A stretch of 64,000 bases of DNA, taken from NCBI RefSeq assembly GCF_026810445.1, contig NZ_CP113949.1:3286001-3350000 (forward strand), read 5' to 3'. The DNA comes from Pseudomonas sp. BSw22131. Its GTDB lineage: Bacteria > Pseudomonadota > Gammaproteobacteria > Pseudomonadales > Pseudomonadaceae. The notes under the pieces are model-generated. The model was given only the letters and a program-made list of their open reading frames with translations. It did not search any database and was not told the origin of the DNA. Both the position numbers and the translations under genes were made by a program. The stretch's first letter is position 1. Each line of letters starts with the position of its first letter. Shown here in pieces: positions 5,315 to 55,260 of this stretch.

Positions 5315-5385
5315 TGACACCCTCCGATTTTCAGAGTCTGCTGGAGTGCGGGCCTCCCATACGCCATGGGCTGCCCGCTAAGTGC

Positions 5386-6327: not shown

Positions 6328-6395
6328 GATTGCTCTCTTGTGATTATTGTTGAGTCCACTTTTGAAGCGCAGCAGGTGTTGCATGCAGCGACCGA

Positions 6396-7388: not shown

Positions 7389-7457
7389 GGTCTGAAGCCC
7401 TCTTTCTTGTTATTGGAAGGATGTGCTGCTGTCGCATGCACTCTGCGTTTCGCTGCC

Positions 7458-9014
7458 TCAGGCAGCGCCGCCCGTGGCCAGATCGATGATCCGTTCCTGG
7501 GAAATTTCACTGCCCGATGCACCGCCGACTTCGGCCACCAACTGCCCTTCGCGCATCACCAGCACGCGGTCGCAGGTGCCAATGATTTCCGGCAATTCGC
7601 TGGAGATCACCACAATGCCGACACCGGCTTTTGCCAGCTCATTGATGATGCGATAAATCTCCGACTTGGAGCCGATGTCCACGCCGCGGGTCGGCTCATC
7701 GAGCAGCAACACTACCGGCTTGACCTCAAGCAACCGCGCCAGCAGGACTTTCTGCTGATTACCGCCCGACAACGCGCCCACGCTCACCTTGCCCGATGCC
7801 ACGCGGATCGACAGCGCACGAATCGCATCGATGGCACGTCTGGCGCCGCGCGGGCGGTCCAGCACGCCACCGCTGTGGGCGTCTGGCACGCACGCGCAGA
7901 CGTTGATGTTGTCACGCACGCTCATGTCGAGAAACAGCCCTTGGGCCTTGCGGTCTTCGGTGAGGTAAACCACACCGGCGCGGATGGCGTCAGCGGGGTT
8001 ATTCAATTCAGTCACGGGCTTGCCGGAGATCTCCAGCGTGCCGGAGATGCGTGAATCGGCCGCGAAAATCAGCCGGGCCAATTCGGTACGTCCGGCACCC
8101 ACCAGCCCGGCAATGCCCAGCACTTCCCCGGCGTGCAGGTCGAAGCTGCAAGGGCGCACGCGTTTGCCGTCCGCCATGTCACGCACGCGCATCACCACCG
8201 CGCCGGGATCGTAAGCCGCGTGTTCTTTTTTGTAGAAGCCGGACAAATCGCGGCCCACCATCATCTTCACCAACACTTCAGCGGACAGCCCGTCGCGCTG
8301 TAGCTGGCCGACGTACTCGCCGTCGCGCAGCACAGACACCCGGTCCGACAGCTCGTAGATTTCAGCCATGCGATGGCTGATATAGATGATCGCCAGACCC
8401 TGATCGCGCAATTGCTTGATCAGCGCAAACAGGCGGTCGGTCTCGCGGGATGACAGCGGCGTGGTGGGCTCGTCCATCACCAGAATTTTGGCGTTGGCAT
8501 GCAGCGCACGGGCAATCTCGACCAGTTGGCGTTCGGCAATCGACAACGAGCTGACTGTGGTGGTCGCGCTGAATCCAGCGCCCAGCCGTGTCAGCACCTC
8601 GACAACGCCCGCCTCCATCGACTTTCGGTCGATGGTCCATCCCCGGCGCAGCTCACGGCCAAGATAGATATTCTCGGCGACGCTAAGATTGGGACACAGG
8701 CTCAGCTCTTGGTAAATCACCGCAATGCCATGGGCTTTGGCCGTTAACGGGTCGAAGACTGACAAGACCTGCCCATTGACCCGGATATCAGCGCCGGGAT
8801 CGGCCTGGTAAGCACCGGACAGGATTTTCATCAGTGTCGACTTGCCCGCCCCGTTCTCCCCCATCAGCGCATGCACTTCACCGGCATACACCTGCAACGC
8901 GACATCTTTGAGCACGCGCAGGCCGTTGAAGGTTTTGGAAATATTGCGCATTTCCAGAACAGGCGTGGGCTGGGCTTCGGAAAAATCAGGTTGTGCAGCA
9001 GAAGGCACGCTCAT
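7458..9014 (-). CDS. Sugar ABC transporter ATPase, RbsA type (tandem ATPase domains)
   Basis: A 518-residue protein with two fused ABC ATPase domains, as in RbsA/XylG. The N-terminal domain has Walker [10 protein letters not shown], signature LSIAERQ and Walker [16 protein letters not shown]. The C-terminal domain has a degenerate Walker A ([10 protein letters not shown]), signature LSGGNQQK and Walker [12 protein letters not shown], the usual asymmetry. The ATG at 9014 is chosen over an in-frame TTG at 9041; neither has a strong ribosome site. It is the first gene of the operon, 190 bp downstream of the LacI-type palindrome. Confidence 0.9.
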
Positions 9015-9206
9015 GACAGAGCGCTCGAAACGGGAGTGCAAGGCGCGTCGCTGAGGGAGCGAACGAGCGTGAACCGACCATGATGGCTGTTCATTTCAAA
9101 CCTCGAGGTTTCTTGTTTTTATACCTGTGACTCCTCGTCGGATGGCGCTGACGGAAGACACTCGGGAAGCAACTGGAAACACTCTAGAACAGCTGAATCG
9201 TTTCAC

Positions 9207-9218
9207 GCAAGCGCTTGC
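9207..9218. promoter_or_regulatory. LacI-family operator palindrome of the sugar operon
   Basis: GCAAGCGCTTGC is a perfect 12-bp palindrome centred on the CG step typical of LacI/GalR-family sites (AANCGNTT core). It lies about 190 bp upstream of the ATPase start and is the only such palindrome noticed there. It probably binds the LacI-type protein encoded in the operon. Confidence 0.65.
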
Positions 9219-9269
9219 TTTTACTTTTGCAAAATAACCTGCGAAGTGCGCAGGCGTACAAATCGGGGA

Positions 9270-9473
9270 CTATTTGTTTTCGGGATCGTTGTCAGGCTCA
9301 GGGAACAACGTGTCGACACGCTGTCTGTTGCCGCTGCGCACGGGCGCCATGGCGGCAGACTCCGCCAGCTTTGTGGCCATCTCCCAGTGCCGGTCCTGCT
9401 GCCCATCCGGCTTGCCTTCGGTCTCCCAGATCGCCTCGGCCAACTGACGAATTGTGTCTTGATCGATGCTCAT
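9270..9473 (-). CDS. DUF2934 small protein
   Basis: A 67-residue protein, MSIDQDTIRQLAEAIWETEG..., with the DUF2934 pattern: a short helix containing IRQLAEAIWE, then G(K)PDGQQDRHWEMA. Role unknown. The ATG at 9473 follows GGGGGAG at good spacing; the longer open frame upstream is basic, unlike the family, and was rejected. It is one of five very small minus-strand genes between the sugar operon and the TonB receptor. Confidence 0.8.
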   Translation of the reverse strand: MSIDQDTIRQLAEAIWETEGKPDGQQDRHWEMATKLAESAAMAPVRSGNRQRVDTLFPEPDNDPENK

Positions 9474-9650
9474 TTCCACTCCCCCTGTATAGGCCCATGT
9501 GCCATCGCCCGGCATCAAGTGAACGCCGTGACAGTTTTTTGTGACAACACTTTGCCGAGAAAGTACGCCACGGCGTACTCCTTTCGAACACATCGACACC
9601 TTGGGCTTACGCAGCGGGGGCACGCTGCGTGTGTATCGGCGATTCATGTT

Positions 9651-9773
9651 TCACCAAGCGCCTGGTGGAATGCCGTCTTTTTTGAAGTCCTTGAGACGCT
9701 CTTTTTCCTCGGGTGTGGAATGGGCAGGCGTATCGTCGGCAGGCTTTTCCGGAGTTTTTTCGGGTTCGCTCAT
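9651..9773 (-). CDS. 40-residue acidic/lysine-rich mini-protein
   Basis: A short open frame encodes 40 residues starting MSEPEKTPEKPADDTPAHST and ending KDFKKDGIPPGAW. It is charged, proline-rich at the N-terminus and probably disordered there. The ATG at 9773 is preceded by GAGGATTAAC, a good ribosome site, which is the main reason to accept it. No family recognised. Confidence 0.5.
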   Translation of the reverse strand: MSEPEKTPEKPADDTPAHSTPEEKERLKDFKKDGIPPGAW

Positions 9774-9828
9774 GGTTAATCCTCGTGCCCAGTCAGTGAT
9801 CATGGGCCGTGATAGCGGATCGGCTGGA

Positions 9829-10158
9829 TCAGGGTTGACGTCGGTTCAGCACAATACTGACCACCAGACCTACGCCTGCTGCTGCCGCAACCGCATGCCA
9901 GGGTTTTTCCTTGACGTAGGCCTTGGCCTTTTCAAACGCCGGCAGACCGTGCTCCACGAGCGGGCCTTCGGACGTCACCGATCTGGAGGCGCTGTCCAGA
10001 AACGCCCTCAGACGGCTGCGTGCCACATCAGTGCGGTCTTCGTTAACGGCGTCGCCAGCTTTAAGCAGTGCGTCAGTCTCTTTGAGAAACGCGTTCAGCT
10101 CGGAGCGCGTTTTCTCGTAGAGATCGTCAGTCAGGGTGTTCGTGAAGTCTTTGGACAT
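9829..10158 (-). CDS. DUF883 (ElaB/YqjD-like) membrane-anchored protein
   Basis: A 109-residue protein of the ElaB/YqjD family: a long amphipathic helical region (about residues 5-75), then the conserved YVKEKPWHAVAAAAGVGLVV segment forming one C-terminal membrane helix and a basic tail (LNRRQP). In E. coli such proteins sit in the inner membrane and associate with stationary-phase ribosomes; that role is inferred only by family. The ATG at 10158 starts MSKDFTNT; 13 upstream in-frame residues look untranslated. Confidence 0.85.
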   Translation of the reverse strand: MSKDFTNTLTDDLYEKTRSELNAFLKETDALLKAGDAVNEDRTDVARSRLRAFLDSASRSVTSEGPLVEHGLPAFEKAKAYVKEKPWHAVAAAAGVGLVVSIVLNRRQP

Positions 10159-10257
10159 GAGTGCATTCCTGATGGGTTGCTCGAAATGGATTGACACGGC
10201 GCAAGGCGGCTTCGTTCAACCGAAGTAGACCTTCGCGCACCTGGGTCACCCAGCACG

Positions 10258-10506
10258 TCAGTCACCCGAGATCACGCCGGTCATGGCGGTGAATTCACTT
10301 TGACGATTGTTCAGTTTTTCGAGGACGTCGGCCGGGGTCGACTCACGAAAGACCACCATGTGGCCGACCTCTTTGCCGCCTTCAGTGACACGTTCGATGT
10401 CATTGATCATCCATGTCTTGAGCTCGTCGACGGAAATGCCTAACTGCTCTGCAATCTGGAGATGAAAGCGTTCCTGGTCGTACTGATTGAATGCTTCGCT
10501 GTTCAT
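10258..10506 (-). CDS. Hypothetical 82-residue protein
   Basis: A soluble protein starting MNSEAFNQYDQERFHLQIAE with a helix-turn-like segment (IAEQLGISVDELKTWMIN) followed by an alpha/beta tail. The helical part is reminiscent of a small HTH, but no DNA-binding family can be named. GAGGCACCTCCC precedes the ATG at 10506. It lies in the run of small minus-strand genes. Confidence 0.55.
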   Translation of the reverse strand: MNSEAFNQYDQERFHLQIAEQLGISVDELKTWMINDIERVTEGGKEVGHMVVFRESTPADVLEKLNNRQSEFTAMTGVISGD

Positions 10507-10612
10507 GGGAGGTGCCTCGCTCGTCAGTGATGTAGTTGAGGCTGCGAACTGGGCCAACAGTTCAGCGCGATGTACAACGCCATGACCTGAGGTCAGGTTC
10601 GCAAAGCGATGG

Positions 10613-10843
10613 TCAGTGGAGGGAAGAAATCATCAGCCGTCCGCCGGCCAGTCCAGCCTGCTGCGCAGCTTCAAGCTTGAAGTAGCTGCGGTTGTATTCG
10701 CGCCACACCGGGGAGATGCGCTCACCCGCTTTGCGCGTTACAACGTCAATGGTCCACGGTGTGGCCGAGCCATTTCGGTAGGCGTTGACGGTAATCTTGA
10801 AAGCGCCTTCAACGAAGTCGCGGGAATGGTAGGTGCTCTGCAT
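10613..10843 (-). CDS. Hypothetical 76-residue protein
   Basis: A compact protein (MQSTYHSRDFVEGAFKITVN...) with alternating beta-strand-like segments (FKITVNAYRNG, WTIDVVTRKAG) and a helical C-terminal region (FKLEAAQQAGLAGGRLMI). AAAGGAGCACGTC gives a strong ribosome site for the ATG at 10843. Unrecognised family. It is the first of the small-gene group in the direction of transcription. Confidence 0.6.
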   Translation of the reverse strand: MQSTYHSRDFVEGAFKITVNAYRNGSATPWTIDVVTRKAGERISPVWREYNRSYFKLEAAQQAGLAGGRLMISSLH

Positions 10844-11041
10844 GACGTGCTCCTTTGGACGGATCCCGCGATTGCGGGAGTCAGGGCAGTCAAAGTGGTC
10901 ACTGGCATCAGCAACATTCAACCGGGCCACTTCGCATGGCCACATTCATACGAGTGATGGACACAGCCTTTCGTTCCTATTCAAACAGCCTTTCAACAGC
11001 CCGTTTCAAACCTTCGCAAAATCAGTAAACGGAAGCTTTCT

Positions 11042-11060
11042 GATAACAAGAATAATTAGC
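11042..11060. promoter_or_regulatory. Fur-box-like site upstream of TonB receptor
   Basis: The 19 bases from 11042 match the Fur consensus GATAATGATAATCATTATC at 14 positions by my count. The site lies about 84 bp before the receptor start, where Fur sites of siderophore receptors usually sit. It suggests iron repression of that gene. Confidence 0.6.
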
Positions 11061-11143
11061 ATTAAACAATTGTGAAAATTTTGTTAGGATTCGCCCCCCT
11101 CACGTAGTCCTTTGCCTGCATTCAGCTTTCCAGGAATCCTACA

Positions 11144-13315
11144 ATGCTCCGTCCCGTATTCCCCGCGTTGGCCACCACAATTGCGCTCGGTTTTTGCTCC
11201 TCCTCAATGGCGGCACCTGTTGATCCCGACATTCCTGCGGCACCAGGGACCATTTCTCTGGACGGTGTGAATATCAACGCCGACTACGGCCTGGCGGGTA
11301 TGGCGACTACCGAAAGCAGCGGCTCTTACACGACGGGCTCCATGAACACCGCGACCAAGCTGCCTCTGTCGATCCGCGAGACTCCACAATCGGTCAGCGT
11401 GATTACTCGTCAGCGCATGGAAGATCAGGGCATGAACGACCTCAATGACGTGGTCAAATATGCACCCGGCGTGACGCTGCACAAGACTGCGTCTGATCGC
11501 CAGGAGTTTCTGGCGCGCGGCTTCAAGATCGACAACATCATGTACGACGGGCTGCCCACCAGTATCAGCACGTACACCCAGGACGTCATATCCGCGGCTG
11601 ATCTGAGCATTTACGACCGCGTTGAAGTGGTCCGCGGTGCGACAGGCCTGATGACGGGCGCCGGCAGCCCGGCCGCTACGTTGAACCTTGTGCGCAAGCG
11701 CCCGACTGCCACGCCGCAGGTCAGCATTACGACGAGCGCCGGCTCTTGGGATCGCTACCGGACTGAAGTCGATGCGTCCAACAAGCTCAATGATGCCGGC
11801 ACCGTCCGTGGCCGCGTGGTCGCGGCGTATCAGGACAACAACAGTTTCACCGATGTGCGTGAAAATCAGCGGCAGACGTTTTACGGCGTCCTCGACATGG
11901 ACCTCAACGACTCAACAACCTGGACGATCGGCGCCTCCAAGCAGCGCGATGACAACACTTCAGACTGGGGCGGCCTGCCAAGCGGTCCGAATGGCGAAGA
12001 CCTGCACCTCAAACGCTCAAGCTTTCTGAGCAATGACTGGTCGTATTGGGACAAGGATAACGTCAGCGTCTTCACCGACCTGACGCATCGGTTCGACAAT
12101 GGCTGGTCCACCAGGCTTGCCGCTGCAAAAATCTGGGCCAAGGCAGACACCTTTTCCAGCTATCCGGGCAACTACGACGGCGCCGGTTTCCAGCAGTACT
12201 CCGGCAAGTACATCGACAATGATGACCAGACCAACCTCGACGCCTCCCTCTCCGGCCCTTTCCAGCTATTGGGTCGCGAGCACGAGTTGGTGGTGGGCGT
12301 CAGTCATCGTCAGGAAAAGTTCGATCAATGGGGCGGCTGGACTGCGGGTACACCGATCGACATTTACAACTTCGATCACGCAATTTCCAAGCCGGCAGTG
12401 GACACGACGATGTACGAAGGCCGTAACACCACCACCGAAAAAGGCGTGTATGCCGCTGCCCGCCTGAACCCTATTGGTCCGCTGCATATCATCCTGGGTA
12501 GCCGGGTCAGCTGGTATGACTACGACAACCGTGCCGGCACCGGGGATTACTCCGTCACCCGTGAAGTCACGCCGTACGCCGGGATCATCTATGACCTGAA
12601 CGACACCTATTCGGCGTACGTCAGCTACACCGAAATCTTCAAGCCGCAGAGCGAGATGGACGCCAGCCGTAAAGTGCTGGAGCCCATGACCGGCAAGAAC
12701 TATGAAATCGGCCTTAAAGGGGAGTACTTCGAAGGCGCGCTGAACGCTTCTGTCGCGTTGTTCGAAATGGAGCAGGAAAACCGTGCGTACCTGCTCGACA
12801 ACCAGAACTCGACCAACTGCCCGTCGTTCCCGGCAACCAGTTGCTACGGCGCCGCTGGCAAAGTGCGCAGTCGCGGTATCGACACCGAACTGACTGGCGC
12901 CCTCACCGCCGACTGGCAGTTCTCGGCGTCCTACACCTACGTCCTCAGCCAGTACATTGAAGACGGCACCGAGAGCAATGAAGGCAAACTGTTCGCGCCT
13001 GACCAGCCCAAGCATTTGTTCAAGGCAGCGACCAGTTACACCCTGCCTGGCGAGTTGCACAAATGGCGCGTTGGCGCAGACGTTTACGGCCAGAGCAAAA
13101 CCTTCAACCGCGTGGGCAACGGCACCGCCGATCAGGACGCTTACGGCATCGTCGGCCTGATGGCAGGTTACAAGTTCGATGAGAACTGGGACGGCCGGGT
13201 CAACGTCAACAACCTGCTCGATACCCGCTACTGGCAAGGCATCCCGAATGCCGGGGGCGCCGGACAGTACGGTGACCCACGCAACCTGATGTTTTCGTTG
13301 AAGTGGACGCTCTGA
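11144..13315 (+). CDS. TonB-dependent siderophore receptor
   Basis: A 723-residue outer-membrane receptor that should take up a ferric siderophore using TonB energy. Order: Sec signal peptide (to about residue 23, ending SSSMAAP); plug domain about 60-200 with the typical IRETPQSVSVITRQRMEDQG, DVVKYAPGV and YDRVEVVRGATGLMTGAGSP segments; and a 22-strand barrel ending NLMFSLKWTL, where a terminal aromatic is usual. It has no N-terminal signalling (STN) domain, so it is not a surface-signalling FpvA/FecA type. The Fur-box-like site upstream and terminator at 13354 make it monocistronic. No siderophore biosynthesis genes are nearby, so it may import a foreign siderophore. Confidence 0.9.
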   Translation: MLRPVFPALATTIALGFCSSSMAAPVDPDIPAAPGTISLDGVNINADYGLAGMATTESSGSYTTGSMNTATKLPLSIRETPQSVSVITRQRMEDQGMNDLNDVVKYAPGVTLHKTASDRQEFLARGFKIDNIMYDGLPTSISTYTQDVISAADLSIYDRVEVVRGATGLMTGAGSPAATLNLVRKRPTATPQVSITTSAGSWDRYRTEVDASNKLNDAGTVRGRVVAAYQDNNSFTDVRENQRQTFYGVLDMDLNDSTTWTIGASKQRDDNTSDWGGLPSGPNGEDLHLKRSSFLSNDWSYWDKDNVSVFTDLTHRFDNGWSTRLAAAKIWAKADTFSSYPGNYDGAGFQQYSGKYIDNDDQTNLDASLSGPFQLLGREHELVVGVSHRQEKFDQWGGWTAGTPIDIYNFDHAISKPAVDTTMYEGRNTTTEKGVYAAARLNPIGPLHIILGSRVSWYDYDNRAGTGDYSVTREVTPYAGIIYDLNDTYSAYVSYTEIFKPQSEMDASRKVLEPMTGKNYEIGLKGEYFEGALNASVALFEMEQENRAYLLDNQNSTNCPSFPATSCYGAAGKVRSRGIDTELTGALTADWQFSASYTYVLSQYIEDGTESNEGKLFAPDQPKHLFKAATSYTLPGELHKWRVGADVYGQSKTFNRVGNGTADQDAYGIVGLMAGYKFDENWDGRVNVNNLLDTRYWQGIPNAGGAGQYGDPRNLMFSLKWTL

Positions 13316-13353
13316 TCGGTCAGACCCATTGACACCAGACGCGCCGAAAAATG

Positions 13354-13385
13354 AAAAAGCCCACGCCATTGCTGGTGGGCTTTTT
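13354..13385 (+). terminator. Rho-independent terminator after TonB receptor
   Basis: Eleven-bp arms (AAAAAGCCCAC / GTGGGCTTTTT) with a 10-base loop end in a T-tract, 39 bp after the receptor stop. The chemoreceptor remnant begins just beyond it. Confidence 0.85.
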
Positions 13386-13393
13386 ATTCAGGC

Positions 13394-14244
13394 ATGGTCC
13401 TGGACGAGGATTACGCTTCGCTGTTCATGATCGACCAAAGCACCTTGCGCCTGCCCCGCCAGATCAACATCGTCGGCCAGTTGAACGGGTTCTCCAGCGG
13501 CTTGCGCAACGGACAACCTGTCACTGAAGCCGACCGCAGCTCGTTGCGCGCGCTTCTTAAACAAGAAACCCAGCTTCGTCAGGAACTGCAGCAGAGTCTG
13601 AAATTACTCCGCCGTAACGAGCCCGTCCTGACAAAATCGAGCCGCCTATCATGGCCGCCCTGACCAGTCTGGACGGGTTTCGCCAGAACCTGCAAAACCT
13701 GATGAGCGCCAGCGATGGGGTGATCCGCAGCGTTGAAACCCTGACCACGGAAGGCAATTCAGCCGTCGCACAGCTCTACAAAGCCCAAGACTTATTGCAG
13801 GAGACCTTGCACAACGAACTGGCGAGTCGCGGATTTGCCGTGGTGGCCGATGAAGTGCGCACGCCGGCATCGCGCACCCAGACCTCCACAGAGGAAATCC
13901 GCCGCATCATTCAGGAACTGCAACACAACACCAAGGCCGCCGTCGACCAGATGACCGCAGGTCAGACCCGGGCTCGCGACTGCATAGATTCGGCCGTCAA
14001 AGCCTCGACCAGCCTGACTGACATCAATGAAGAAGTGGAACGTATTGTCGGCATGAACACTCAGATTGCCAGCGCAGCCGTTCAGCAGCATGCGGTCTCC
14101 GAAGACATCAATCGCAACGTCATCGAGATTCGTAACGGCAGCATGACGCTGATGCAAGGGGTCGAGGACAACGAAGTCACGGCTGACGAATTGTCGTTGC
14201 TGGCGGGCGAGCTGCGTACGGTGGTCGCGCGCTTCAAGTGGTAA
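13394..14244 (+). pseudogene. Methyl-accepting chemotaxis protein remnant (three lesions)
   Basis: A broken copy of the chemoreceptor type encoded intact at 26421-28445. Three defects show by alignment with it. The N-terminal ~180 residues, including the first membrane helix, are missing, and homology starts at [16 protein letters not shown] frameshift near 13633 separates LRRNEPVLTK from IEPPIMAALTSLDGF. An in-frame deletion near 13835 joins the periplasmic segment KAQDLLQETLHNELASR directly to [11 protein letters not shown], removing the second membrane helix, HAMP and most of the signalling hairpin. The C-terminus ([15 protein letters not shown]) is intact. It cannot encode a working receptor. 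Confidence 0.85.
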
Positions 14245-38915: not shown

Positions 38916-39003
38916 CGCAGGCACAAAAAAGCCGGTTGAGATAACCGGCTTAACTGTCTGATGTTACTCAGGAATAAATGGTCGGGACGGAGTGATTCGA
39001 ACA
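38916..39003. repeat. Island left end: direct repeat with partial tRNA-Pro 3' end
   Basis: These 88 bp match 55121-55208 at 87 positions, the one difference being G/A at 38921. The repeat holds the tRNA terminator hairpin and the last 25 bp of tRNA-Pro (38979-39003), where identity stops abruptly. This is the expected signature of site-specific integration at a tRNA 3' end. Confidence 0.88.
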
Positions 39004-42275: not shown

Positions 42276-42590
42276 TACTCGGACAAAGATTTCACTTAGC
42301 AGCTTCCCGTCAGCCGTCAACTGACTGTAAGAAGGCCGGCCTTTTCAGAAATCGACGAGCAAACGAGCGATTGATCACCATGTCTCACAAGTGTGTTTGG
42401 ACCAAGTCACACAATGAGCCCTAAATATTAAGTCGAACACAGGTTGTGGTGAGGGTGGCCGAACGGTCGATAGCCAGCCGTCACTCGTAGCTACTAAAGA
42501 CGGCTATTTCGTGACCAGCGCCGGGGCAAACTTCTATGCAGCCATCAACAGGAGTAGTTTCAGTGCACCACTAAACGTCTACCGCCATGA
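42276..42590. other. Gene-free stretch before phosphatase gene end
   Basis: About 315 bp between the IS5 relic and the phosphatase stop codon. I see no gene or clear terminator. Confidence 0.35.
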
Positions 42591-43856
42591 TCACGGGTTG
42601 TCGTAGTGCTGTACCTCAGTCGCAGACCGATCGATGCGCTTTTCCATCTCGCCAACAAACCCGTTCAATGGCATCAATCCCTCTCCCGCATACCCCTGGT
42701 ACTGCACCTGATAGGGCGGTGCATCGGACAAACTGCGTAATTGGTCCAGGCTCTGCGCCACATAGGCAACGCTTACAAACTGCGCGCCTGTGCGGTCGTT
42801 CGCCCAGCGTTCAAACACAATAGTGCCGCCCGGTGCTGCGTCATTCTCGGGGTATTCGGCGATTTTCCAGTCAAAGCCCAGCAGCGTGCGCAACTGCGCG
42901 ATGTTGCTGTCGTGGCCCACGTACGCCAACCATTTGGTACCAGGCGGGCTGCCCACTGATGTCGGTTGCAGGGCCAGCAGGATTTGTCCGAGCAATTGCG
43001 AAGCCCCCCGCTGGGCGATGTAAGGTACGTGATTGCTCAGCGCGTATTTTCCCGAACGCAAGGCCATTAAGGTAGATACGTCTGCGGCGGTGCGACCTTC
43101 GCCAAACGCCACTTGGTCCAGTGGCAAGCCTTCGGCGTATTGCATGCGGAAAGTTTCGCTCATGGCCGCGCCCACACTCAACGGACCGCTGAGCTTGATG
43201 ACGCCTGCGTTCTCTTTCAGCGTCCAGGGTTGCTTGCTCAGGGCGCAGGTCTTTTTCCCGCAGAGCGTCGGCACGCCTACCAAGTGCTGCATGGCCAGCA
43301 ACGGCGCCGCAAAGCGCTCGCGAGCTGCGTCTACGCTGCCACCCATGGCTGCCAGCATCGCCACCTGGGTGCGCACCGGGTCCAGTGGTGCCAGGCCATT
43401 TTCGTCGCCGTGGAACAGCCGGTCTTCACTCTCACGCACATGGTGTATCGCTACGTTGCAACCCGGGAACATCCCCTTTACCAACGCCGTACTGGTGTCC
43501 TGAGCACGCGCTACCGGGCTGGACCACACGTAGGCATCCCCCGCCTGCGGGCACTGCCCCGCGTTGAACAGGCCGAGCGAATCCAGCGTGTGGCGTTGCC
43601 ATTGGCCGAGCAGCACGGTGGCAGCACGGCCATGGGCGGTCAACTGACCGTCGCGGGCACCAAACGCTGGCCAGGTCTTGGCCGACCAGCGTTGCAACTC
43701 GGCGGTGTTGGTAGCCGCGCGGATACCGTGGCGCATCACCAGTACCACCTTGTCCAGGCGCAGGCCGGTGGTGTCCAGAGGCGCGGCCACCGCTGGAAGC
43801 GCCAGGCACACGCCCAGCGCCAACCCCGCATATTTCAATAACTTCGATTTCATCAT
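42591..43856 (-). CDS. Secreted histidine acid phosphatase (phytase-like, AppA family)
   Basis: A 421-residue exported phosphatase of histidine-phosphatase branch 2. It has a signal peptide (LLKYAGLALGVCLALPAVAA), the nucleophilic-His motif VVLVMRHGIRA, where the family's usual final Pro is Ala, and the proton-donor motif YVGHDSN in place of HDTN. The cysteines are compatible with periplasmic disulphides. Family members release phosphate from phytate, glucose-1-phosphate and other monoesters. It is the last gene of the tonB-exbB-exbD-receptor operon, four bases after the receptor stop, so it probably generates or processes the receptor's substrate. GTG 43859 and ATG 43853 are alternative starts. 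Confidence 0.87.
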   Translation of the reverse strand: MMKSKLLKYAGLALGVCLALPAVAAPLDTTGLRLDKVVLVMRHGIRAATNTAELQRWSAKTWPAFGARDGQLTAHGRAATVLLGQWQRHTLDSLGLFNAGQCPQAGDAYVWSSPVARAQDTSTALVKGMFPGCNVAIHHVRESEDRLFHGDENGLAPLDPVRTQVAMLAAMGGSVDAARERFAAPLLAMQHLVGVPTLCGKKTCALSKQPWTLKENAGVIKLSGPLSVGAAMSETFRMQYAEGLPLDQVAFGEGRTAADVSTLMALRSGKYALSNHVPYIAQRGASQLLGQILLALQPTSVGSPPGTKWLAYVGHDSNIAQLRTLLGFDWKIAEYPENDAAPGGTIVFERWANDRTGAQFVSVAYVAQSLDQLRSLSDAPPYQVQYQGYAGEGLMPLNGFVGEMEKRIDRSATEVQHYDNP

Positions 43857-43863
43857 CACGGGC

Positions 43864-45984
43864 CTAGAAGTCGTAGCGGGTATTGAGGCTTAAAGTACGT
43901 GGCGAACCCGGCTGCAGGTAGTTTTCCTGGTAGTAGGTCCAGTACTGTTTGTTGGCCAGGTTGGTGACGTTGGCACCCAAGGTCAGCGCATGACCATCGC
44001 CCAGACGCAGACGATAGCCGCCCCCTGCATCGAACAGGCTGTAGGCCGGCAGGGTATGCACGTCGCCCGAATCCACTGCCATTTCGCCGATACGCTGGAC
44101 GCCGGTGTGCAGGAACATCCCCTGCACCATGGGCACACGGTACGTAACCTGGGTTGCGGCCTGATAGCGCGCCGCACCTGCTGCGCGGTTTCCGTCCACA
44201 CCGTCCCCCGCATCGTGGTAGGCCGAGTCCAGTGACATGACGCTACCTTCCACTGTCAGGTCCGGTGTGGCATCGACGCTGGCGTTCAGCTCCAGGCCCT
44301 GATAGCGGATGGTGCCGCTTTGCACGTAGACGTTGGCGTCGTTGGTGTACTCGGCGCCACGGTCGATGCGAAACGCTGCGGCGGTAGCACTCCAGTTACG
44401 TTGCTGGGCTTTCACGCCCACCTCGTATTGCTTGCTGCGCAGCGGGCCCAGGGTCTGGTCGGAGTTGAAGGCGTTACTGGGTGCGGTACCGCCGCTTTCC
44501 AGAGATTCGACATAACTGGCATACAGCGTCATGTCCTGGGTCGGCTTGTACATCAGCGCAAGAGTTGGGGTTGCGGGCCGGGCCTTGTACTGTGTCGCCG
44601 CCGAGGTGGCGGAGTCGTGGGTTTGCTCCTGGAAGTTTTCGTTGCGCAGGCCAGCCAGCAACGACCAGTGTTCGCCCAGGCCGATGGTGTCGCTGGCGAA
44701 CACCGCGCTTTCCTTGACGTTGTCGTCGCCGTAGGTACCGCCGCTGTAGTCGATGTTGTACACCGAGAAGATCGTCGGGTTGTACAGGTTGCCCTTGCCC
44801 ACGGTGGTCTTGGGGGTGACCACGGATTTGTCCGAGTTCAGTTGCGAATAGCTGGCGCCGAGTACCATGTCGTGAGTGAACCATCCCGTGGTGAATTTAC
44901 CTTCCAGGGTGCCCATGGTGTCGTTGTAGTCGTAGGCGTGGTACTCGGACGTGACCTTGTCGGTGTAGCCGCCGGCGTCGCTGGAAATCTGGTATTGGTC
45001 CTTCACATAACGGCGTGTCGAATCGCTGTAGCGGTAGGCCAGCTTACCGGTCCAGTCGGGAGAAAACTTGTAGGTGGCGCTCACGGTCGACAGGCTGTAG
45101 TCGACATCGGTATAGGAGCCATTGCTGTACAGGCGTTTGCTGCCGTCAATAGGGCTGGGCAAGGCGTTCTTGGTGTTGACGATGATGTCGGTGCCACCGC
45201 TGGTATTGCGTTTCTGGTACAGGGTGTCGAAGTCAACGCTCAGGTCATCACTGAGCTGCGCGTTCAGCGCAACGCTGACTGCCGTTCGGTTGACCTTGGC
45301 GTTACCCGAAGCGGCATCGCCCTCCTCGTGTACCACATTGACCCTGTAGCCGAAACGCGGGTCATCCAGACGCCCTCCGGCGTCCAGATGCTCCTTATAA
45401 AGGTTGTTGGACTGGTAGCCGGCATCAACGCTGAGGGTGGTCTTGTCGGTAGGCCGCTTGGTCACGTAGTTGACGATGCCGCCCGGGCTGCCGAAGCCAT
45501 ACATGAAGCCCGACAGACCTTTAAGCACATCGACCCGCTCGAACATCTCAAGAGGCATTTCCACACCGCGGTTGATGTTGGCCATGCCGTCGACTTTGTA
45601 GCCGTTCAGGTCATCCAGGGGCAGGCCGCGAACGGCCAGCGTGGCTGGGTGGGTGCCATAGCTGGAGCTGATGGAGGTGACCGAGGCATCATACTTGACG
45701 GCCTCAGACAGGATGCCCGCCTGACGGGCCTGGATTTCGTCGCTGCCTACGCTCTTGAACGAAAACGGCGTGTCGATCACCGCGTGGCTGCCCAAGGCAC
45801 CGCTGTTGGTCTGCTGGCGCAACGCCGGCTTGCGCTTGGTTGCCTTTACTGTGACTTGAGGCAACGTGGCCAACGTACTGTCGTCGATGGCCGGTGGTGC
45901 ATCGGCCGCAAACGATGGCAAGGCCAGGGCAAACGCTGCGAAACCGAGACCTGCACGCACATACAGCTGAGATTTGCGAAACAT
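43864..45984 (-). CDS. TonB-dependent receptor of the phosphatase operon
   Basis: A 706-residue outer-membrane receptor. It has a signal peptide to about residue 27 (LALPSFAADA), a plug domain about 60-200 (FKSVGSDEIQARQAGILSEA, LAVRGLPLDDLNGYKVDGM, VDVLKGLSGFMYGFGSPGG) and a beta barrel ending SPRTLSLNTRYDF with the terminal Phe needed for outer-membrane insertion. The plug is siderophore-receptor-like, but the operon contains a phosphatase and a Pho-box promoter rather than iron genes. An organophosphate or phytate-metal complex is therefore a plausible ligand. It lies between exbD (113-bp gap) and the phosphatase. Confidence 0.88.
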   Translation of the reverse strand: MFRKSQLYVRAGLGFAAFALALPSFAADAPPAIDDSTLATLPQVTVKATKRKPALRQQTNSGALGSHAVIDTPFSFKSVGSDEIQARQAGILSEAVKYDASVTSISSSYGTHPATLAVRGLPLDDLNGYKVDGMANINRGVEMPLEMFERVDVLKGLSGFMYGFGSPGGIVNYVTKRPTDKTTLSVDAGYQSNNLYKEHLDAGGRLDDPRFGYRVNVVHEEGDAASGNAKVNRTAVSVALNAQLSDDLSVDFDTLYQKRNTSGGTDIIVNTKNALPSPIDGSKRLYSNGSYTDVDYSLSTVSATYKFSPDWTGKLAYRYSDSTRRYVKDQYQISSDAGGYTDKVTSEYHAYDYNDTMGTLEGKFTTGWFTHDMVLGASYSQLNSDKSVVTPKTTVGKGNLYNPTIFSVYNIDYSGGTYGDDNVKESAVFASDTIGLGEHWSLLAGLRNENFQEQTHDSATSAATQYKARPATPTLALMYKPTQDMTLYASYVESLESGGTAPSNAFNSDQTLGPLRSKQYEVGVKAQQRNWSATAAAFRIDRGAEYTNDANVYVQSGTIRYQGLELNASVDATPDLTVEGSVMSLDSAYHDAGDGVDGNRAAGAARYQAATQVTYRVPMVQGMFLHTGVQRIGEMAVDSGDVHTLPAYSLFDAGGGYRLRLGDGHALTLGANVTNLANKQYWTYYQENYLQPGSPRTLSLNTRYDF

Positions 45985-46097
45985 GACTGCACCTTCGAAA
46001 ACGGCCGTTCACGGCCTGGTTGATTTCTGTCGCGCGCACTTCACCGTGACCGGCTGTAACAGCCGACCAAGGGGTGTGGACGAAGGCGACGAGGTTG

Positions 46098-46523
46098 TTA
46101 AGGCGTAACGGCCTGGGTCACGAAGCCGATCTTGTCCAGGCCACCGGACTGCGCCGCGGCCATTACCTGCACCACCTTTTCATACGGGGTGTTACGTGCG
46201 GCGCGCAGGTGCAACTCAGGTACCGGCTGACGCGCAGCGGCCTCGGCGATCAGTGCCGGCAAGTCGCTGTCGCCGATGTCGCGGTCGTCCCAATGCAGGT
46301 GGCCTTCGTTGTCCAGCGCCAGATCCACGGAGGGCGGCGGTTTGTTGTCCTGCTGCGCGGCGGCCTTAGGCAGGTCAATCTTCACCGAGTGCTGGATGGC
46401 CGGCACGGTGATGATGAAGATCACCAACAGCACCAGCATCACGTCCACCAGCGGCGTGGTGTTGATTTCGGGGTTAAAGCCGTCCTCTTCCAGCTCATCC
46501 CCGCCCAGCAATCCACCGGCCAT
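46098..46523 (-). CDS. exbD: ExbD-type energy transducer subunit
   Basis: A 141-residue protein with the ExbD/TolR layout: a short cytoplasmic N-terminus, NPEINTTPLVDVMLVLLVIF containing the proton-conducting Asp in the single membrane helix, and a periplasmic domain ending in VVQVMAAAQSGGLDKIGFVT. It starts inside the exbB stop codon (TGATG), so the two are translationally coupled. It would form the ExbBD proton channel that powers the TonB encoded upstream. Confidence 0.92.
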   Translation of the reverse strand: MAGGLLGGDELEEDGFNPEINTTPLVDVMLVLLVIFIITVPAIQHSVKIDLPKAAAQQDNKPPPSVDLALDNEGHLHWDDRDIGDSDLPALIAEAAARQPVPELHLRAARNTPYEKVVQVMAAAQSGGLDKIGFVTQAVTP

Positions 46524-47251
46524 CAGACGTACTCCGCCTGGGCGTTGAACGTGCTGCGCGCAGGCTGCCCGCCGCGTGGGGTCGCACGGGCGCCGATTAC
46601 CAGCAGGTCGTGCAGTTCGAAGGCAAACTTGCCCAGTTCAGCGAGGGTCTGCTTGTTACTGCGCACCAGCAGGTTGTAGCCCAGGGTGGCCGGAATGGCC
46701 ACGGCCAGTCCCAGAGCGGTCATTATCAGCGTTTCGCCGACGGGGCCTGCGACCTTGTCGATGCTCGCGTCGCCGGTCAGGCCGATCTTCATCAAGGCGT
46801 GATAGATGCCCCACACGGTGCCGAGCAAACCGACAAAGGGGGCGCTGGAACCCACGGTGGCCAAAATCGCCATGCCGCCTTGCAACTGTCCGCCCACGGT
46901 CAAGGTGGCTTGGCGCAAGGCGCGGGTCAGCCATTCACTGAAGGCCGGCGGGTTCATGTCGCCATCCAGCGCATCACGGTGCTGGCGTGCGGCGCTGATG
47001 CCTGCATGGGTGAGTTCGGTGTAGGCACTATGATGATCCAATTGCTGCAAGCCATCCTTGAGCGTCGGTGCGTTCCAGAACGCCGCCAGCAACTTCGGCG
47101 AACGCAGGCGATGCAGTGCCAGGCGCACCAGCTTGTCGACCATCACGTACCAGGACGCAACCGACATCACCAACAACGTCAAGGCCACGGTACGGGTGAC
47201 AAAGTCGGCCTGTTGCCACAAAACATTCAAACCCAGTGTTCCGGTTTCCAT
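46523..47251 (-). CDS. exbB: ExbB-type proton channel protein
   Basis: A 242-residue MotA/TolQ/ExbB-family protein with three membrane helices: TRTVALTLLVMSVASWYVMV at residues 19-38, a middle one in ILATVGSSAPFVGLLGTVWG, and GETLIMTALGLAVAIPATLG. The last two carry the conserved channel residues. AAAGGAAAT precedes the ATG at 47251. It lies 84 bp after tonB and overlaps exbD by one base. It belongs to a dedicated TonB system separate from any housekeeping copy. Confidence 0.92.
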   Translation of the reverse strand: METGTLGLNVLWQQADFVTRTVALTLLVMSVASWYVMVDKLVRLALHRLRSPKLLAAFWNAPTLKDGLQQLDHHSAYTELTHAGISAARQHRDALDGDMNPPAFSEWLTRALRQATLTVGGQLQGGMAILATVGSSAPFVGLLGTVWGIYHALMKIGLTGDASIDKVAGPVGETLIMTALGLAVAIPATLGYNLLVRSNKQTLAELGKFAFELHDLLVIGARATPRGGQPARSTFNAQAEYV

Positions 47252-47335
47252 GTGTATTTCCTTTCTTTGGGGTGAGCGCTGCCCTGAGCGGGAGGCCCGT
47301 CGATAAAAGATGGTGGGTTTACGCCTGCTTGAGTA

Positions 47336-48067
47336 CTAACTGTCGAGCTGGAATCGCAGTGGCACGATCACGTACACCGACGCCGCATGCCCCTCCTGCA
47401 AATAAGGCTTGAACAGTGCTCCGCGCACAGCCGTCCTGCCCGCCTCGTCGAGGTTGCCAAAGCCCGACGAGCGTACGATGTCCACCGCGCCGGGCTTGCC
47501 GTGCTCGTCCACCAGTACCCGCAGGATCACGGTGCCCTCGTGGCCCTCTTCACGTGCACTGTCGGGATATTCGGGTTGTGGTTCATGCACGTATTCGACG
47601 CCACGGGTGAGGGTCTTGGGCTGAGGCGGTGGTGCGGGAATTTGCGCGACTACCGGCGCGACTACCGGCGCGGCGGCCGCAGTGCTGATGGTCGCGGGTG
47701 CGGTCGTTGCGACGGCCGCAACGGGGCGTTGCATCACATGCGGCTTGGCTGCGGGCTTGGGCCGGGCTATCGGCTGAACGGCCACAGGTGCAGGTGCAAC
47801 CGAGGCAACGGGAGGCGGTGGCGTGGGGGGTGGCGTGGGCGCGGCACTGGCGGCTGGCGCCGGAGTCGGTTCATTGATGACCGAGGCATAAATAGTACGA
47901 ATCAACGGTGGTGCAAGCGCCGGGGTTGATGACCGGGTCACCATACTCAATGCCAAAACATGCACCAACACCACCAGCGCTACCACGCATCCTCGGCGCA
48001 GCCATCGCGAGGCACTGCCGGCAGGCAATGGCTGAAGGTACAGCAGGGGTGTAAGCGTTGCATCCAC
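47336..48067 (-). CDS. tonB: TonB protein of the phosphatase operon
   Basis: A 243-residue TonB: an N-terminal membrane anchor (RRGCVVALVVLVHVLALSMV), a long Pro/Ala-rich periplasm-spanning segment, and the C-terminal TonB domain (VHEPQPEYPDSAREEGHEGT, VDIVRSSGFGNLDEAGRTAV, VYVIVPLRFQLDS). The GTG at 48067 is chosen because CTGGAG precedes it. The frame stays open to 48205, but starting there would place the start codon at the Pho box, upstream of the -10 element, so it would lie outside the transcript. First gene of the operon. Confidence 0.88.
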   Translation of the reverse strand: MDATLTPLLYLQPLPAGSASRWLRRGCVVALVVLVHVLALSMVTRSSTPALAPPLIRTIYASVINEPTPAPAASAAPTPPPTPPPPVASVAPAPVAVQPIARPKPAAKPHVMQRPVAAVATTAPATISTAAAAPVVAPVVAQIPAPPPQPKTLTRGVEYVHEPQPEYPDSAREEGHEGTVILRVLVDEHGKPGAVDIVRSSGFGNLDEAGRTAVRGALFKPYLQEGHAASVYVIVPLRFQLDS

Positions 48068-48167
48068 GATTGATTTTCTCCAGGCCGGTATGCCGGGTAC
48101 ATCGGGCGCATTCCCTGCGAAGGTTGGGTATAAGGCCTGTAAAGGCCTTCTTAACGGGTGTCGGAGG

Positions 48168-48201
48168 AATATAGGAGTGACGAATGACAGATGCATGACA
48201 G
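48168..48201 (-). promoter_or_regulatory. Pho-box promoter of the tonB-phosphatase operon
   Basis: On the minus strand CTGTCAT-GCAT-CTGTCAT (48201-48184) matches the PhoB consensus repeats at all 14 positions with the exact 4-bp spacer. Ten bases later comes TATATT (48173-48168), a -10 differing from TATAAT at one position. This is the standard layout of a PhoB-activated promoter lacking a -35 box. The tonB start lies about 100 bp downstream. Phosphate-starvation induction is inferred. Confidence 0.88.
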
Positions 48202-48452
48202 ACAAGAATTATCATGTAAGCATTTTGTTACAATTTCATGGGCACCAACAGGCGTGACCTTATAAACGGTCATTGCGGGATTGAATCCGCAGTCAAAGGT
48301 AGCCTTTCGGGACTGGCAGCTATTGGCCGATTCTGTTGAAAAGTCGATTTTTCAGGAAACGTGACGCTGAGCTTGGCCTCTTCAAAGAACCTATTCACCA
48401 CTGTTAAGTGGCTTTTCGATCTTTCGTTGACCGTTGCTGCTGTGTCAGTGGG

Positions 48453-49252
48453 TTAATTTGAGGGTTTTTGCTTGAAACAGGCGTACCTATCCTGTGGCGG
48501 GTGGCCCTTGAGATGTAAGTTGGCCAGTCGGCGCAGGTTCTGTACCGCAGCCGCTAACGTGAATTCATCGGTCGCGCCACTCATCCCTCGTAGTCGCAAG
48601 CGATCCAGTTTCAAGATGCGCTTGAGGTGGGCGAACAACATTTCTACCTTCTTACGTTCGTGACGAGAGCGCACATATTCCGGCGTTTTCGCGATTCGCC
48701 GAGCCACATCGCGAGCCGCTTCATGAACACTGCGGGCGATCTTACGAACCTCAGTGTTCGGGCAGCACTTGGCTTTCATCGGACATGTCGCGCAGTCGGT
48801 TTGGCTGGATCGGAAGTTGATGGTGTTGGCTTTCGTTACGTGTGAGCGCAGGTTCTTGAAAGCTCGCCATTCGCTACGTAATGCCTTACCAGCAGGACAG
48901 CGATACTCCTCAGCGTCTTTGTTCCAGTGGAAGTCGCTGATCGAAAAACTGTCGTCCTTGCGCTCTGTTTTATCCCACAGCGGCACATGCGGCTCGATAT
49001 CTTTCTCTTCCACCATCCAGGCCAGCATCGGTGCTGTGCCGTAAGCGGTGTCGCCGACCAGCATGCGGATCATCAGCTCAGGATCAATCGAAGGACGCCC
49101 AATCGGGCTATAGAAGTCGGCGAGATAGTGGCGCAGGTCGCTCAGATCGAGACACCGATCAATGCTGCGCAGCAGATTATTTGTTGGGATGTGGTCTTCA
49201 AGGTTGAACGAGTAAAACAGCCGATCCTGCCCCTCGATAACTGTCCCATCAT
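48453..49252 (-). pseudogene. Damaged IS1182-family transposase
   Basis: Recognisable segments are RLFYSFNLEDHIPTNNLLRS, FYSPIGRPSIDPELMIRMLV, GDTAYGTAPMLAWMVEEKDI and the zinc-like CATCPMKAKCC. The native start at 49252 (MMGQLSRG) is shifted out of frame near 49238. An in-frame deletion joins IRMLV directly to GDTAYGT, removing the first catalytic part of the DDE core. The long open frame fused to unrelated N-terminal sequence is an artefact of the frameshift. Not active. Confidence 0.8.
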
Positions 49253-49342
49253 GCTGCGTATTCTCCCGCTGGCCGATGGATATATTTTGCCGCAAGCCAG
49301 ACAGGAGCGATACGAGCCAATCAAGAATGATCCGAATGGGCG

Positions 49343-49876
49343 TTAATTTTCGCAGGTATCGTTTCGTAGATCGTGCCACATATGCACTTTCGAAATGTAT
49401 TGCTGCCCTACTGCTACCGCCAAAGGTTCTATTCCAAATGGCTTGAATCCCATTCGCTCGTAGAGCCCTTGTGCACCTCGATTACCCTCGGTGACGGTGA
49501 GCTGAACGAGCAAAAGCTGAGACTGGGATTTCGCATAGGCCAGGACGCTGCGCAGCAGTTTATATCCGATGCCTTTCTCTCGATGAGCGAGTGGAACGTA
49601 CATTCCGAAGAGCGTGGATTTGTGGCTGGCCTTCTTTCTTCTTTCAACAGAAAGTCCAGCGACACCAAGCAAATCCTCACCCTCAAACGCAGCGAACACC
49701 AGATCGGCAGCATCAGATCCACTATTAAGCCTTTTCTCCCACCAGTCGATGGGTAAGGCTTCGCGCTCGCCGACATCGGAAGTAAAAGCATCGGGATGAA
49801 GGCGATAAGCCTCAAGCATTAGCGCTCGATACGACGAGGCATGATCCGGGGTCAGTCGTTTGATTATCGTGGTCAT
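49343..49876 (-). CDS. GNAT-family N-acetyltransferase (passenger)
   Basis: A 177-residue GCN5-type acetyltransferase. Acetyl-CoA motif A is visible as YVPLAHREKGIGYKLLRSVL, followed by LLLVQLTVTEGNRGAQGLYE and RMGFKPFGIEP (motif B). Substrate unknown; relatives acetylate small amines or protein N-termini. The ATG at 49876 starts MTTIIKRLTP; an alternative lies three codons upstream. It sits inside the inverted repeats of the IS1182-like element, so it may move with it. Confidence 0.85.
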   Translation of the reverse strand: MTTIIKRLTPDHASSYRALMLEAYRLHPDAFTSDVGEREALPIDWWEKRLNSGSDAADLVFAAFEGEDLLGVAGLSVERRKKASHKSTLFGMYVPLAHREKGIGYKLLRSVLAYAKSQSQLLLVQLTVTEGNRGAQGLYERMGFKPFGIEPLAVAVGQQYISKVHMWHDLRNDTCEN

Positions 49877-49982
49877 CGAAATCACATTTCATGGTCGTGC
49901 ACTGATTATGTCCTTTCTAGGCCCAAGGCGACACGGACGGAGATGCTTGAGTTTTTCAACAGAATCGGCCGATAGCTGCCAC

Positions 49983-50930
49983 TCAACTTGGAAACGGCAG
50001 TTGTGCTAGCAACTTCACAATGCTAGAGGCCAAGCATCCGTCCGGGTCTAGATCAGGATCGAATACCGTTACAGTCATTCCCTTACATAGAGGGTTGGCA
50101 ACGAATGATGCAATGATGATCAATAAGTCGTCAGGTGGAATGCCTGGAGAACCGGGCGAGTCCACAGCGGGCATTACAGTCTGATCCAGCACGTCTATGT
50201 CCAGGTGTATCCAATAGCCCTGGTCAGGCTTTCGAGCCAGCACTTCACTAATGCGTCCTATAACGGCCGTCGGACCTATCCTCAAGGCTTCGAAGACATC
50301 GACACGATTAATAGCCGTGCTATTTACATCGGGCCAGGCAAAGTCGTCGTCGCGGTTCTCGCGCTCACCCAGTTGGATGACATCGGCGTCAGCAACAAGC
50401 GGACCGGCAATGCCTGGCCATTCCGTTGCCAGTTGCTCACCACGACCAGTAGCCAGCGCCAGGTCCATGCCCGCAACCGCGCCTAGGCTCTGCGTCGGAT
50501 CGTAGTTACCCGGATGGCGGAAGTCGCTGTGTCCATCAATATGAATGAGGGAAATAGGGCCCGCTTCGCGGACTCCGGCTAACGCGCCCAGCAGAATTGA
50601 ACAATCACCCCCGATGACAAGCGCGAAGTCGCCTTGTCTACTGGCTTCACTCACCAGATTCGCCAAAGCAATATTGAACGAACGAATAGTATGGCCGTTA
50701 CGCAAACGTGTTCCTGGCTGCTCTTCCGTCGAGTATTTGGGCCGAGGTAAAGCCTTAAACTCGCGAGGGATGAGTGCTTGTAGCAGGCCCGCAGCAACCA
50801 GCGCAGCTGGAGCCCGCCACGTACCCGGTTCATGACCAGGCCTCAAGGGACTTAATCCAAGGTTCGATGGCGCAGCAATCACAAGCATGGGGTAAGGGTC
50901 AGCATTCAGCGTTCTTCCAACGGATTTCAT
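49983..50930 (-). CDS. Arginase/agmatinase-family protein with variant metal motif
   Basis: A 315-residue ureohydrolase-fold protein. The family's metal motifs appear as VIGGDCSILLG, HIDGHSDF and HLDIDVLDQTVMPAVDSPGS, with FDPDLDPDG near the end. Compared with true arginase, the first-motif His (GGDH) is Cys and DAHxD is DGHSD. Many arginase-family proteins of unproven substrate share such changes. It may hydrolyse a guanidino or amidino compound. Its stop codon lies two bases from the right repeat of the IS1182-like element, so its extreme C-terminus may have been altered by insertion. Confidence 0.82.
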   Translation of the reverse strand: MKSVGRTLNADPYPMLVIAAPSNLGLSPLRPGHEPGTWRAPAALVAAGLLQALIPREFKALPRPKYSTEEQPGTRLRNGHTIRSFNIALANLVSEASRQGDFALVIGGDCSILLGALAGVREAGPISLIHIDGHSDFRHPGNYDPTQSLGAVAGMDLALATGRGEQLATEWPGIAGPLVADADVIQLGERENRDDDFAWPDVNSTAINRVDVFEALRIGPTAVIGRISEVLARKPDQGYWIHLDIDVLDQTVMPAVDSPGSPGIPPDDLLIIIASFVANPLCKGMTVTVFDPDLDPDGCLASSIVKLLAQLPFPS

Positions 50931-51042
50931 CGGATGCTTTAGTTTGAGTATTTCTCAGGGTAGCACCCACCTTTTCGGTGCGAGTGGGAATACCCTGTGC
51001 CAGATTTCCTGGTGACGAAAACTGCTGCGACAGGCCGCTATC

Positions 51043-55120: not shown

Positions 55121-55208
55121 CGCAGACACAAAAAAGCCGGTTGAGATAACCGGCTTAACTGTCTGATGTTACTCAGGAATAAATGGTCGGGACGGAGTGA
55201 TTCGAACA
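55121..55208. repeat. Island right end: direct repeat overlapping tRNA-Pro
   Basis: Counterpart of 38916-39003, offset by exactly 16,205 bp. It contains the tRNA-Pro terminator and the 3' 25 bp of the intact tRNA gene. The intact tRNA marks this as the chromosomal side of the integration site. Confidence 0.88.
55130..55156 (-). terminator. tRNA-Pro terminator
   Basis: AAGCCGGTT/AACCGGCTT stem with a five-base loop, followed on the minus strand by seven T residues, 28 bp beyond the tRNA 3' end. The same hairpin is duplicated at the island's left end. Confidence 0.85.
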
Positions 55209-55260
55209 CTCGACCCCTTGCACCCCATGCAAGTGCGCTACCGGGCTGCGCTACGCCCCG
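55184..55260 (-). tRNA. tRNA-Pro (anticodon GGG)
   Basis: A 77-nt gene including encoded CCA. The acceptor CGGGGCG pairs with CGTCCCG (one G-U). The anticodon stem CTTGC/GCAAG encloses the loop ATGGGGT, giving anticodon GGG. The T arm carries GTTCGAATC. Its 3' 25 bases are duplicated at 38979-39003, so it is the integration target of the island. Confidence 0.95.

Follow-up and report, generated by a model that had tools for sequence, protein, structure and literature searches.

Phytate is a large organic phosphorus pool in soils, and a five-gene unit that may bear on its uptake lies in a 64,000-nucleotide stretch of Pseudomonas sp. BSw22131 DNA (contig NZ_CP113949.1, positions 3,286,001 to 3,350,000; hereafter the window). 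The unit consists of tonB, exbB, exbD, a TonB-dependent receptor gene and a histidine phosphatase gene, in that order on the minus strand, with a Pho promoter in front. The closest described systems each share some part of this arrangement (the papers are cited from the excerpts available to us, and statements on what they describe refer to those excerpts). In Citromicrobium bathyomarinum the gene for a TonB-dependent transporter (TBDT) adjoins a phytase gene and phytic acid is the proposed substrate; the excerpt differs in that it mentions neither an energiser nor a Pho promoter nor an exchange of the phosphatase, and it does not state the phytase type (PMC3400609). The Flavobacterium johnsoniae phytase Fjoh_1367 and TBDT Fjoh_1368 share their genomic context and are both induced by phosphate depletion (PMC8115612), but that phytase belongs to PF02333 and that receptor carries PF13715, whereas the phosphatase here is a PF00328 protein and a Pfam scan did not find PF13715 in the receptor. 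The exbB2D2-tonB4 genes of the P. aeruginosa PUMA3 regulon are ExbB-ExbD-TonB genes whose promoter needs PhoB at low phosphate; that promoter also needs the sigma factor VreI, however, and the genes are linked with secretion systems and the proteins that are secreted, with no receptor-phytase pair described in the excerpt (PMC4971064; compared by description). In Caulobacter PhoB controls several TonB-dependent receptors (TBDRs) and a phytase, and uptake of phosphate donors has been proposed, but the excerpt describes no single receptor-energiser-phosphatase unit (PMC11208175).

Three reports concern phytate uptake via TBDTs, and as far as their excerpts go the only grounds for proposing it are gene neighbourhood or co-induction (PMC3400609, PMC8115612, PMC11208175). 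The window's unit also contrasts with proteomics on three Pseudomonas strains, which, as excerpted, gave no evidence for PhoBR control of their phytases (PMC5082522). A search of the open-access literature (bioRxiv preprints and most subscription papers were outside its scope) turned up no paper that describes the complete unit, a swap between two phosphatases or a cassette; within that literature the separate parts have published precedents, and the complete unit with its phosphatase swap has none that we found. We propose from its sequence that the unit is probably a PhoB-controlled, self-energised import-and-hydrolysis system for inositol polyphosphates, likeliest phytate (InsP6) or a metal complex of it; the uptake part of this reading rests on gene neighbourhood.

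The five-gene unit and its Pho box

The source genome belongs to the Pseudomonas group (5.74 Mb, one contig). The original prediction, made from the letters of the window, placed five genes on one strand with mostly short gaps or overlap, and the map of open reading frames (ORFs) and the Pfam scan agree with it. All five products exceed Pfam cut-offs (TonB_C, MotA_ExbB, ExbD, Plug plus barrel, and His_Phos_2), and the minus-strand genes are located as follows: tonB at 47336..48067 (243 aa, GTG start; PF03544 TonB_C, 66.7 bits, with the longest ORF scanned), exbB at 46523..47251 (PF01618 MotA_ExbB, 98.7 bits), exbD at 46098..46523 (PF02472 ExbD, 100.8 bits), the TonB-dependent outer-membrane receptor at 43864..45984 (PF07715 and PF00593) and the histidine phosphatase, of AppA/phytase type, at 42591..43859 (PF00328, 77.1 bits). 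There are 84 nt between tonB and exbB, a 1-nt overlap of exbB and exbD, 113 nt between exbD and the receptor gene, and 4 nt between the latter and the phosphatase gene. The unit's exbB is the sole match at E ≤ 1e-30 within its own genome. The longest tonB ORF starts at TTG 48205 and traverses the Pho box; this TTG appears an unlikely start, and GTG 48067 seems the better choice because GGAG stands ten bases upstream of it and because of where the Pho box lies.

The Pho box, CTGTCATGCATCTGTCAT (CTGTCAT-GCAT-CTGTCAT; 48184..48201, minus strand), agrees with the consensus at 14/14 positions, and a -10-like TATATT (48168..48173, minus strand) begins 10 nt past its second repeat, both as had been predicted; relatives share this spacing. 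It is the only perfect Pho box in the window (0 mismatches); at ≤3 mismatches the window holds 7 sites vs a chance mean of 4.5, which is no overall excess. The whole 5.74-Mb genome has 2 perfect boxes, one of which is the unit's, and 34 sites at ≤2 mismatches vs 8 with the reversed control pattern. The second perfect box (C1:4922440-4922457) adjoins integrase-like and HsdR-like reading frames (by eye) and no phosphate gene was recognised beside it, so a perfect Pho box proves nothing by itself. The sole phosphate-linked case recognised in this genome is a 2-mismatch site before a PstC-like ORF (by eye). From the promoter as a whole we infer that PhoB controls the unit.

Pairing of the receptor with two phosphatase types

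The receptor carries the TBDT domains PF07715 and PF00593 above cut-off and no STN domain (PF07660) at E ≤ 0.001, and so was not classed as a cell-surface-signalling receptor. Among solved structures FemA and BauA come closest to it, in sequence as well as in fold. The AF2 model, used for class only, has barrel strands and a poor plug region (mean pLDDT 64.5; residues 1-175 below pLDDT 50). The receptor clade comprises 41 rows, with support of 96/100 against 12 other receptors. We compared 41 loci, 39 from a scan of GTDB contigs plus the window and L017; 7 are of Pseudomonas type (one named only "gamma proteobacterium L18") and 34 of Oxalobacteraceae type (one a Burkholderiaceae metagenome-assembled genome). 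The complete five-gene unit is present in 7/7 Pseudomonas-type loci, and an energiser was detected in 2 of the 34 Oxalobacteraceae-type loci, both from Herbaspirillum.

A histidine phosphatase gene follows the receptor gene in 40 of the 41 loci, the exception, L054, being a 4.6-kb contig, and two types of enzyme occupy this position. All seven Pseudomonas-type loci have a phosphatase that matches the window enzyme, with RHGxR and HDxN, and 33 of the 34 other loci (the miss is again L054) have one that matches the L030/L040 enzyme, with RHGxR and HAE. The window enzyme carries RHGIR and GHDSN and falls in PF00328, and is thus a branch-2 histidine phosphatase (RHGxR plus HD); its N terminus resembles a signal peptide (by eye). 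Its best match in the PDB is the 3-phytase 2wnh (E 5.1e-64), which we take to be from Klebsiella, followed by other phytases including AppA. The L030 enzyme (Duganella) is closest to a multiple inositol-polyphosphate phosphatase (MINPP), 7zgf, at E 1.5e-78; L030 alone was compared with the PDB, and the other 32 were typed by similarity to the L030 or L040 enzyme together with RHGxR and HAE. The likeness to described AppA-type and MINPP phytases extends over most of the length and includes the active-site motifs. Both types belong to PF00328, with no meaningful blastp alignment between them. The strongest argument for inositol phosphates as the ligand is that one receptor clade is accompanied by two kinds of enzyme with the same type of substrate, and the predicted pairing of a phytase-like phosphatase with the receptor is supported by the comparison of loci. 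Among 398 genomes of the phylum, hidden Markov model searches did not detect the receptor within 1.5 kb of 21 other AppA-type and 4 MINPP loci.

How widespread is the unit? The receptor was found at E ≤ 1e-100 in 6 of 199 genomes of the genus, including its own, one of these at 41% identity only, and its occurrence in the genus is patchy by species. One 93%-identical phosphatase cluster represents 223 member sequences, so the unit may be common within carrier species; a further match, partial and at 90%, bears the name P. syringae pv. solidagae. More distant receptors (34-39% identity; 9 loci in 8 genomes) have no histidine acid phosphatase, MINPP or exb match in the surrounding 12.5-16.5 kb, and ten of their neighbour proteins that were scanned belong to mixed families, with FecR and PepSY at L106. 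The same unit in G671 aside, the nearest other energiser is in G639 (46% identical ExbB), beside SbmA-like and TldD/PmbA genes and with no phosphatase match beside it.

Several loci found in this search deserve separate mention. In that G639 locus (L173, 2686-8513) tonB-exbB-exbD adjoins SbmA/BacA-like, thioredoxin and TldD/PmbA genes, and a receptor whose STN match stays below cut-off is 3 kb away; it looks like a locus for peptide uptake and processing. At L018 (G044, 4983-13682) a 41%-identical receptor is accompanied by a PF13449 phytase-like protein, a nucleoside hydrolase, a xanthine/uracil-type permease and ExbB/ExbD matches, possibly a TonB-driven nucleoside uptake operon. In Pseudomonas sp. 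T1-3-2 (L016/L021) the tonB end and the Pho box each occur twice, 1,061 bp apart, in the manner of a tandem duplication.

The Pho promoter across homologous units

The composite Pho promoter pattern GTCAY-N6-GTCAY-N9-11-TANNNT is present upstream of 27 of the 41 units, where 0.06 would be expected, judging by the remainder of these loci (1.51 Mb of strand with 3 sites); a narrower earlier run gave 26 of 41, with no site on the opposite strand and an expectation of 0.00 after shuffling. These counts are not fully independent, since the loci are related and the spacing was known beforehand from an initial promoter count. That count (17/41 at ≥11/14 positions, and 17/41 at p ≤ 0.05 by shuffling) was superseded by the composite pattern, as the tonB regions of L019 and L020 had been poorly anchored in it.

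A stricter form of the pattern (GTCAT as first repeat and an N10 spacer) has 10 sites in the genome of L047 (Rugamonas) and 14 in that of L030 (Duganella), with 0 for the control. Ten of these 24 sites precede PstS-like (2), PhoD (2), Phosphodiest/PafA-like (2), PHO4, metallophosphatase, SurE or PF13449 genes ("PstS-like" and "PafA-like" being our interpretation laid over Pfam matches); of the others, one precedes a solute-binding protein gene, two the units themselves and four other TBDR genes, and the remaining seven are considered in the Discussion. The window's own genome has 2 strict sites, one at the unit and one upstream of an ORF without a Pfam family. In Duganella and Rugamonas four plug-domain receptor genes besides those of the units (L175, L183, L194 and L200) lie behind a composite Pho promoter, so phosphate-controlled TBDRs may be common in these genera.

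The original prediction also held that a dedicated energiser under a Pho box is unusual. The Pho promoter finds support in the composite site kept before 27 of the 41 homologous units, and the rarity of such an energiser must be qualified by exbB2D2-tonB4, a PhoB-dependent precedent as excerpted (PMC4971064).

Genomic setting and mobility

DNA homology to relatives is confined to the unit: L015 is 93% identical over window positions 42591-48282, L014 92% over 42603-48250 and L023 85% over 42579-48085. When nine neighbour proteins were compared with seven loci, a chemoreceptor alone had a match at E ≤ 1e-10, to one locus and over part of its length; the other eight had none. The GC fraction of the unit is 0.615 vs 0.50-0.53 for its flanks (36.0 to 55.2 kb). 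Two 88-bp direct repeats, 99% identical, enclose 16.2 kb including the unit, as in a tRNA island; the right copy (55121..55208, plus strand) overlaps the 3' end of tRNA-Pro (55184-55260, minus strand), and the left (38916..39003, plus strand) is an att-like copy of that 3' end region. No integrase was found between the repeats, where 12 ORFs (5 of the unit and 7 others) were scanned with Pfam and the rest judged by eye. The claims that the unit lies on a tRNA island and is likely transferable both gain from these repeats, the latter also from homology that ends at the unit's edges, and the unit probably spreads as a cassette. The tRNA-Pro setting is not general, because six Pseudomonas-type units and two from Herbaspirillum were found to have no tRNA gene in the surrounding 18 kb. 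The unit was found in none of 72,556 plasmid records, 2 of which had short exb matches.

An IS1182-type element adjoins the unit. At 48311-49984 of the window IS1182-like ends (32 nt, 94% complementary) flank a shortened IS1182 transposase and a passenger-like GNAT acetyltransferase gene, and further such ends lie at 51029, 51206, 53593 and 53771.

Discussion

If the unit works as we propose, PhoB would turn on all five genes from the Pho box when phosphate is scarce, the receptor would capture the phosphate ester on the outside of the cell, and import of the ester would be coupled to the proton gradient by the TonB-ExbB-ExbD that the unit itself encodes. Energised import is proposed because a polyanion of about 660 Da should cross the Pseudomonas outer membrane poorly. 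The phosphatase would then release phosphate, likeliest in the periplasm, given its signal-peptide-like N terminus and AppA-type relatives, and the phosphate would be taken up via Pst. In Oxalobacteraceae the same receptor would work with a MINPP-type phosphatase, an energiser beside the receptor having been detected in Herbaspirillum only.

The following observations count against this proposal. NCBIfam places the receptor among siderophore receptors (TIGR01783, 323.5 bits vs a cut-off of 223.5), and a charge signature, tried as evidence and rejected, shows no basic excess (12 clade-specific K/R vs 14 D/E; 40 clade rows, 12 others). The window enzyme differs from AppA-type phytases in that the proline of the RHGxRxP signature is replaced (RHGIRAA vs RHG[IV]RPA in the six other Pseudomonas-type loci), and it scores below the AppA equivalog cut-off (NCBIfam PRK10172, 221 vs 585 bits). 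The composite promoter was not seen at 14 of the 41 units (L017, L022, L024, L026, L037, L040, L041, L043, L044, L045, L049, L051, L053 and L054), including both Herbaspirillum loci and 2 of the 7 Pseudomonas-type loci, although weaker boxes occur at a similar place in some of the 14; the original prediction had named loss of the Pho box in homologous loci as telling against it, and the composite promoter is kept at the other 27. For seven of the 24 strict Oxalobacteraceae sites the gene that follows has no evident link to phosphate, or no clear gene follows. In the genome of the window itself, the four sites at ≤1 mismatch other than the unit's precede no recognised phosphate-related gene (one ORF was scanned with Pfam and gave no family). 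The sampling is narrow, covering two bacterial groups with most Oxalobacteraceae loci close kin, and the phylum sample yielded no unit besides the window's.

Could the receptor import some other phosphorylated compound, such as a sugar phosphate or nucleotide, with the phosphatase acting as a broad acid phosphatase? The AppA type grades into glucose-1-phosphatase (the window enzyme scores 174 bits with PRK10173 vs 221 with PRK10172, both below cut-off), and the L018 receptor stands among genes that would suit nucleosides; that receptor, however, is outside the 41-row clade, and the MINPP-type partner in 33 loci, together with a 3-phytase as the window enzyme's closest solved relative, makes this reading unlikely. 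Iron might instead be what the receptor imports, in the form of ferric phytate or of a xenosiderophore, with a phosphatase that frees the iron or is incidental; this would suit the TIGR01783 match and the closeness to FemA and BauA, and InsP6 is said to have siderophore activity in P. aeruginosa. We consider this reading quite improbable: a search with a 19-mer Fur consensus at ≤6 mismatches found no Fur-like site in 40 of the 41 loci, the window included, and one weak site in L056, against 27 Pho promoters, which also bears on the possibility of Fur control that the original prediction had raised; moreover, the phosphatase follows the receptor in 40 loci, and there is no iron reductase or binding protein among the unit's five genes. 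Finally, receptor and phosphatase might travel together as a chance or selfish grouping with no joint pathway, as the cassette-like edges and tRNA-Pro repeats would allow, but the two bacterial groups keep the pairing even though their phosphatases differ in type, and they share a promoter architecture, which makes this very improbable.

We return, then, to import and hydrolysis of inositol polyphosphates. For the loci as a whole we lean towards a dedicated family of outer-membrane inositol-polyphosphate importers, PhoB-controlled and mobile, in which the receptor would be kept, the phosphatase (AppA-type or MINPP-type) swapped, and the TonB-ExbBD motor gained or lost. With one receptor clade and two inositol-phosphate-type phosphatases in a compact, movable unit, TonB-dependent phytate uptake becomes a testable question.

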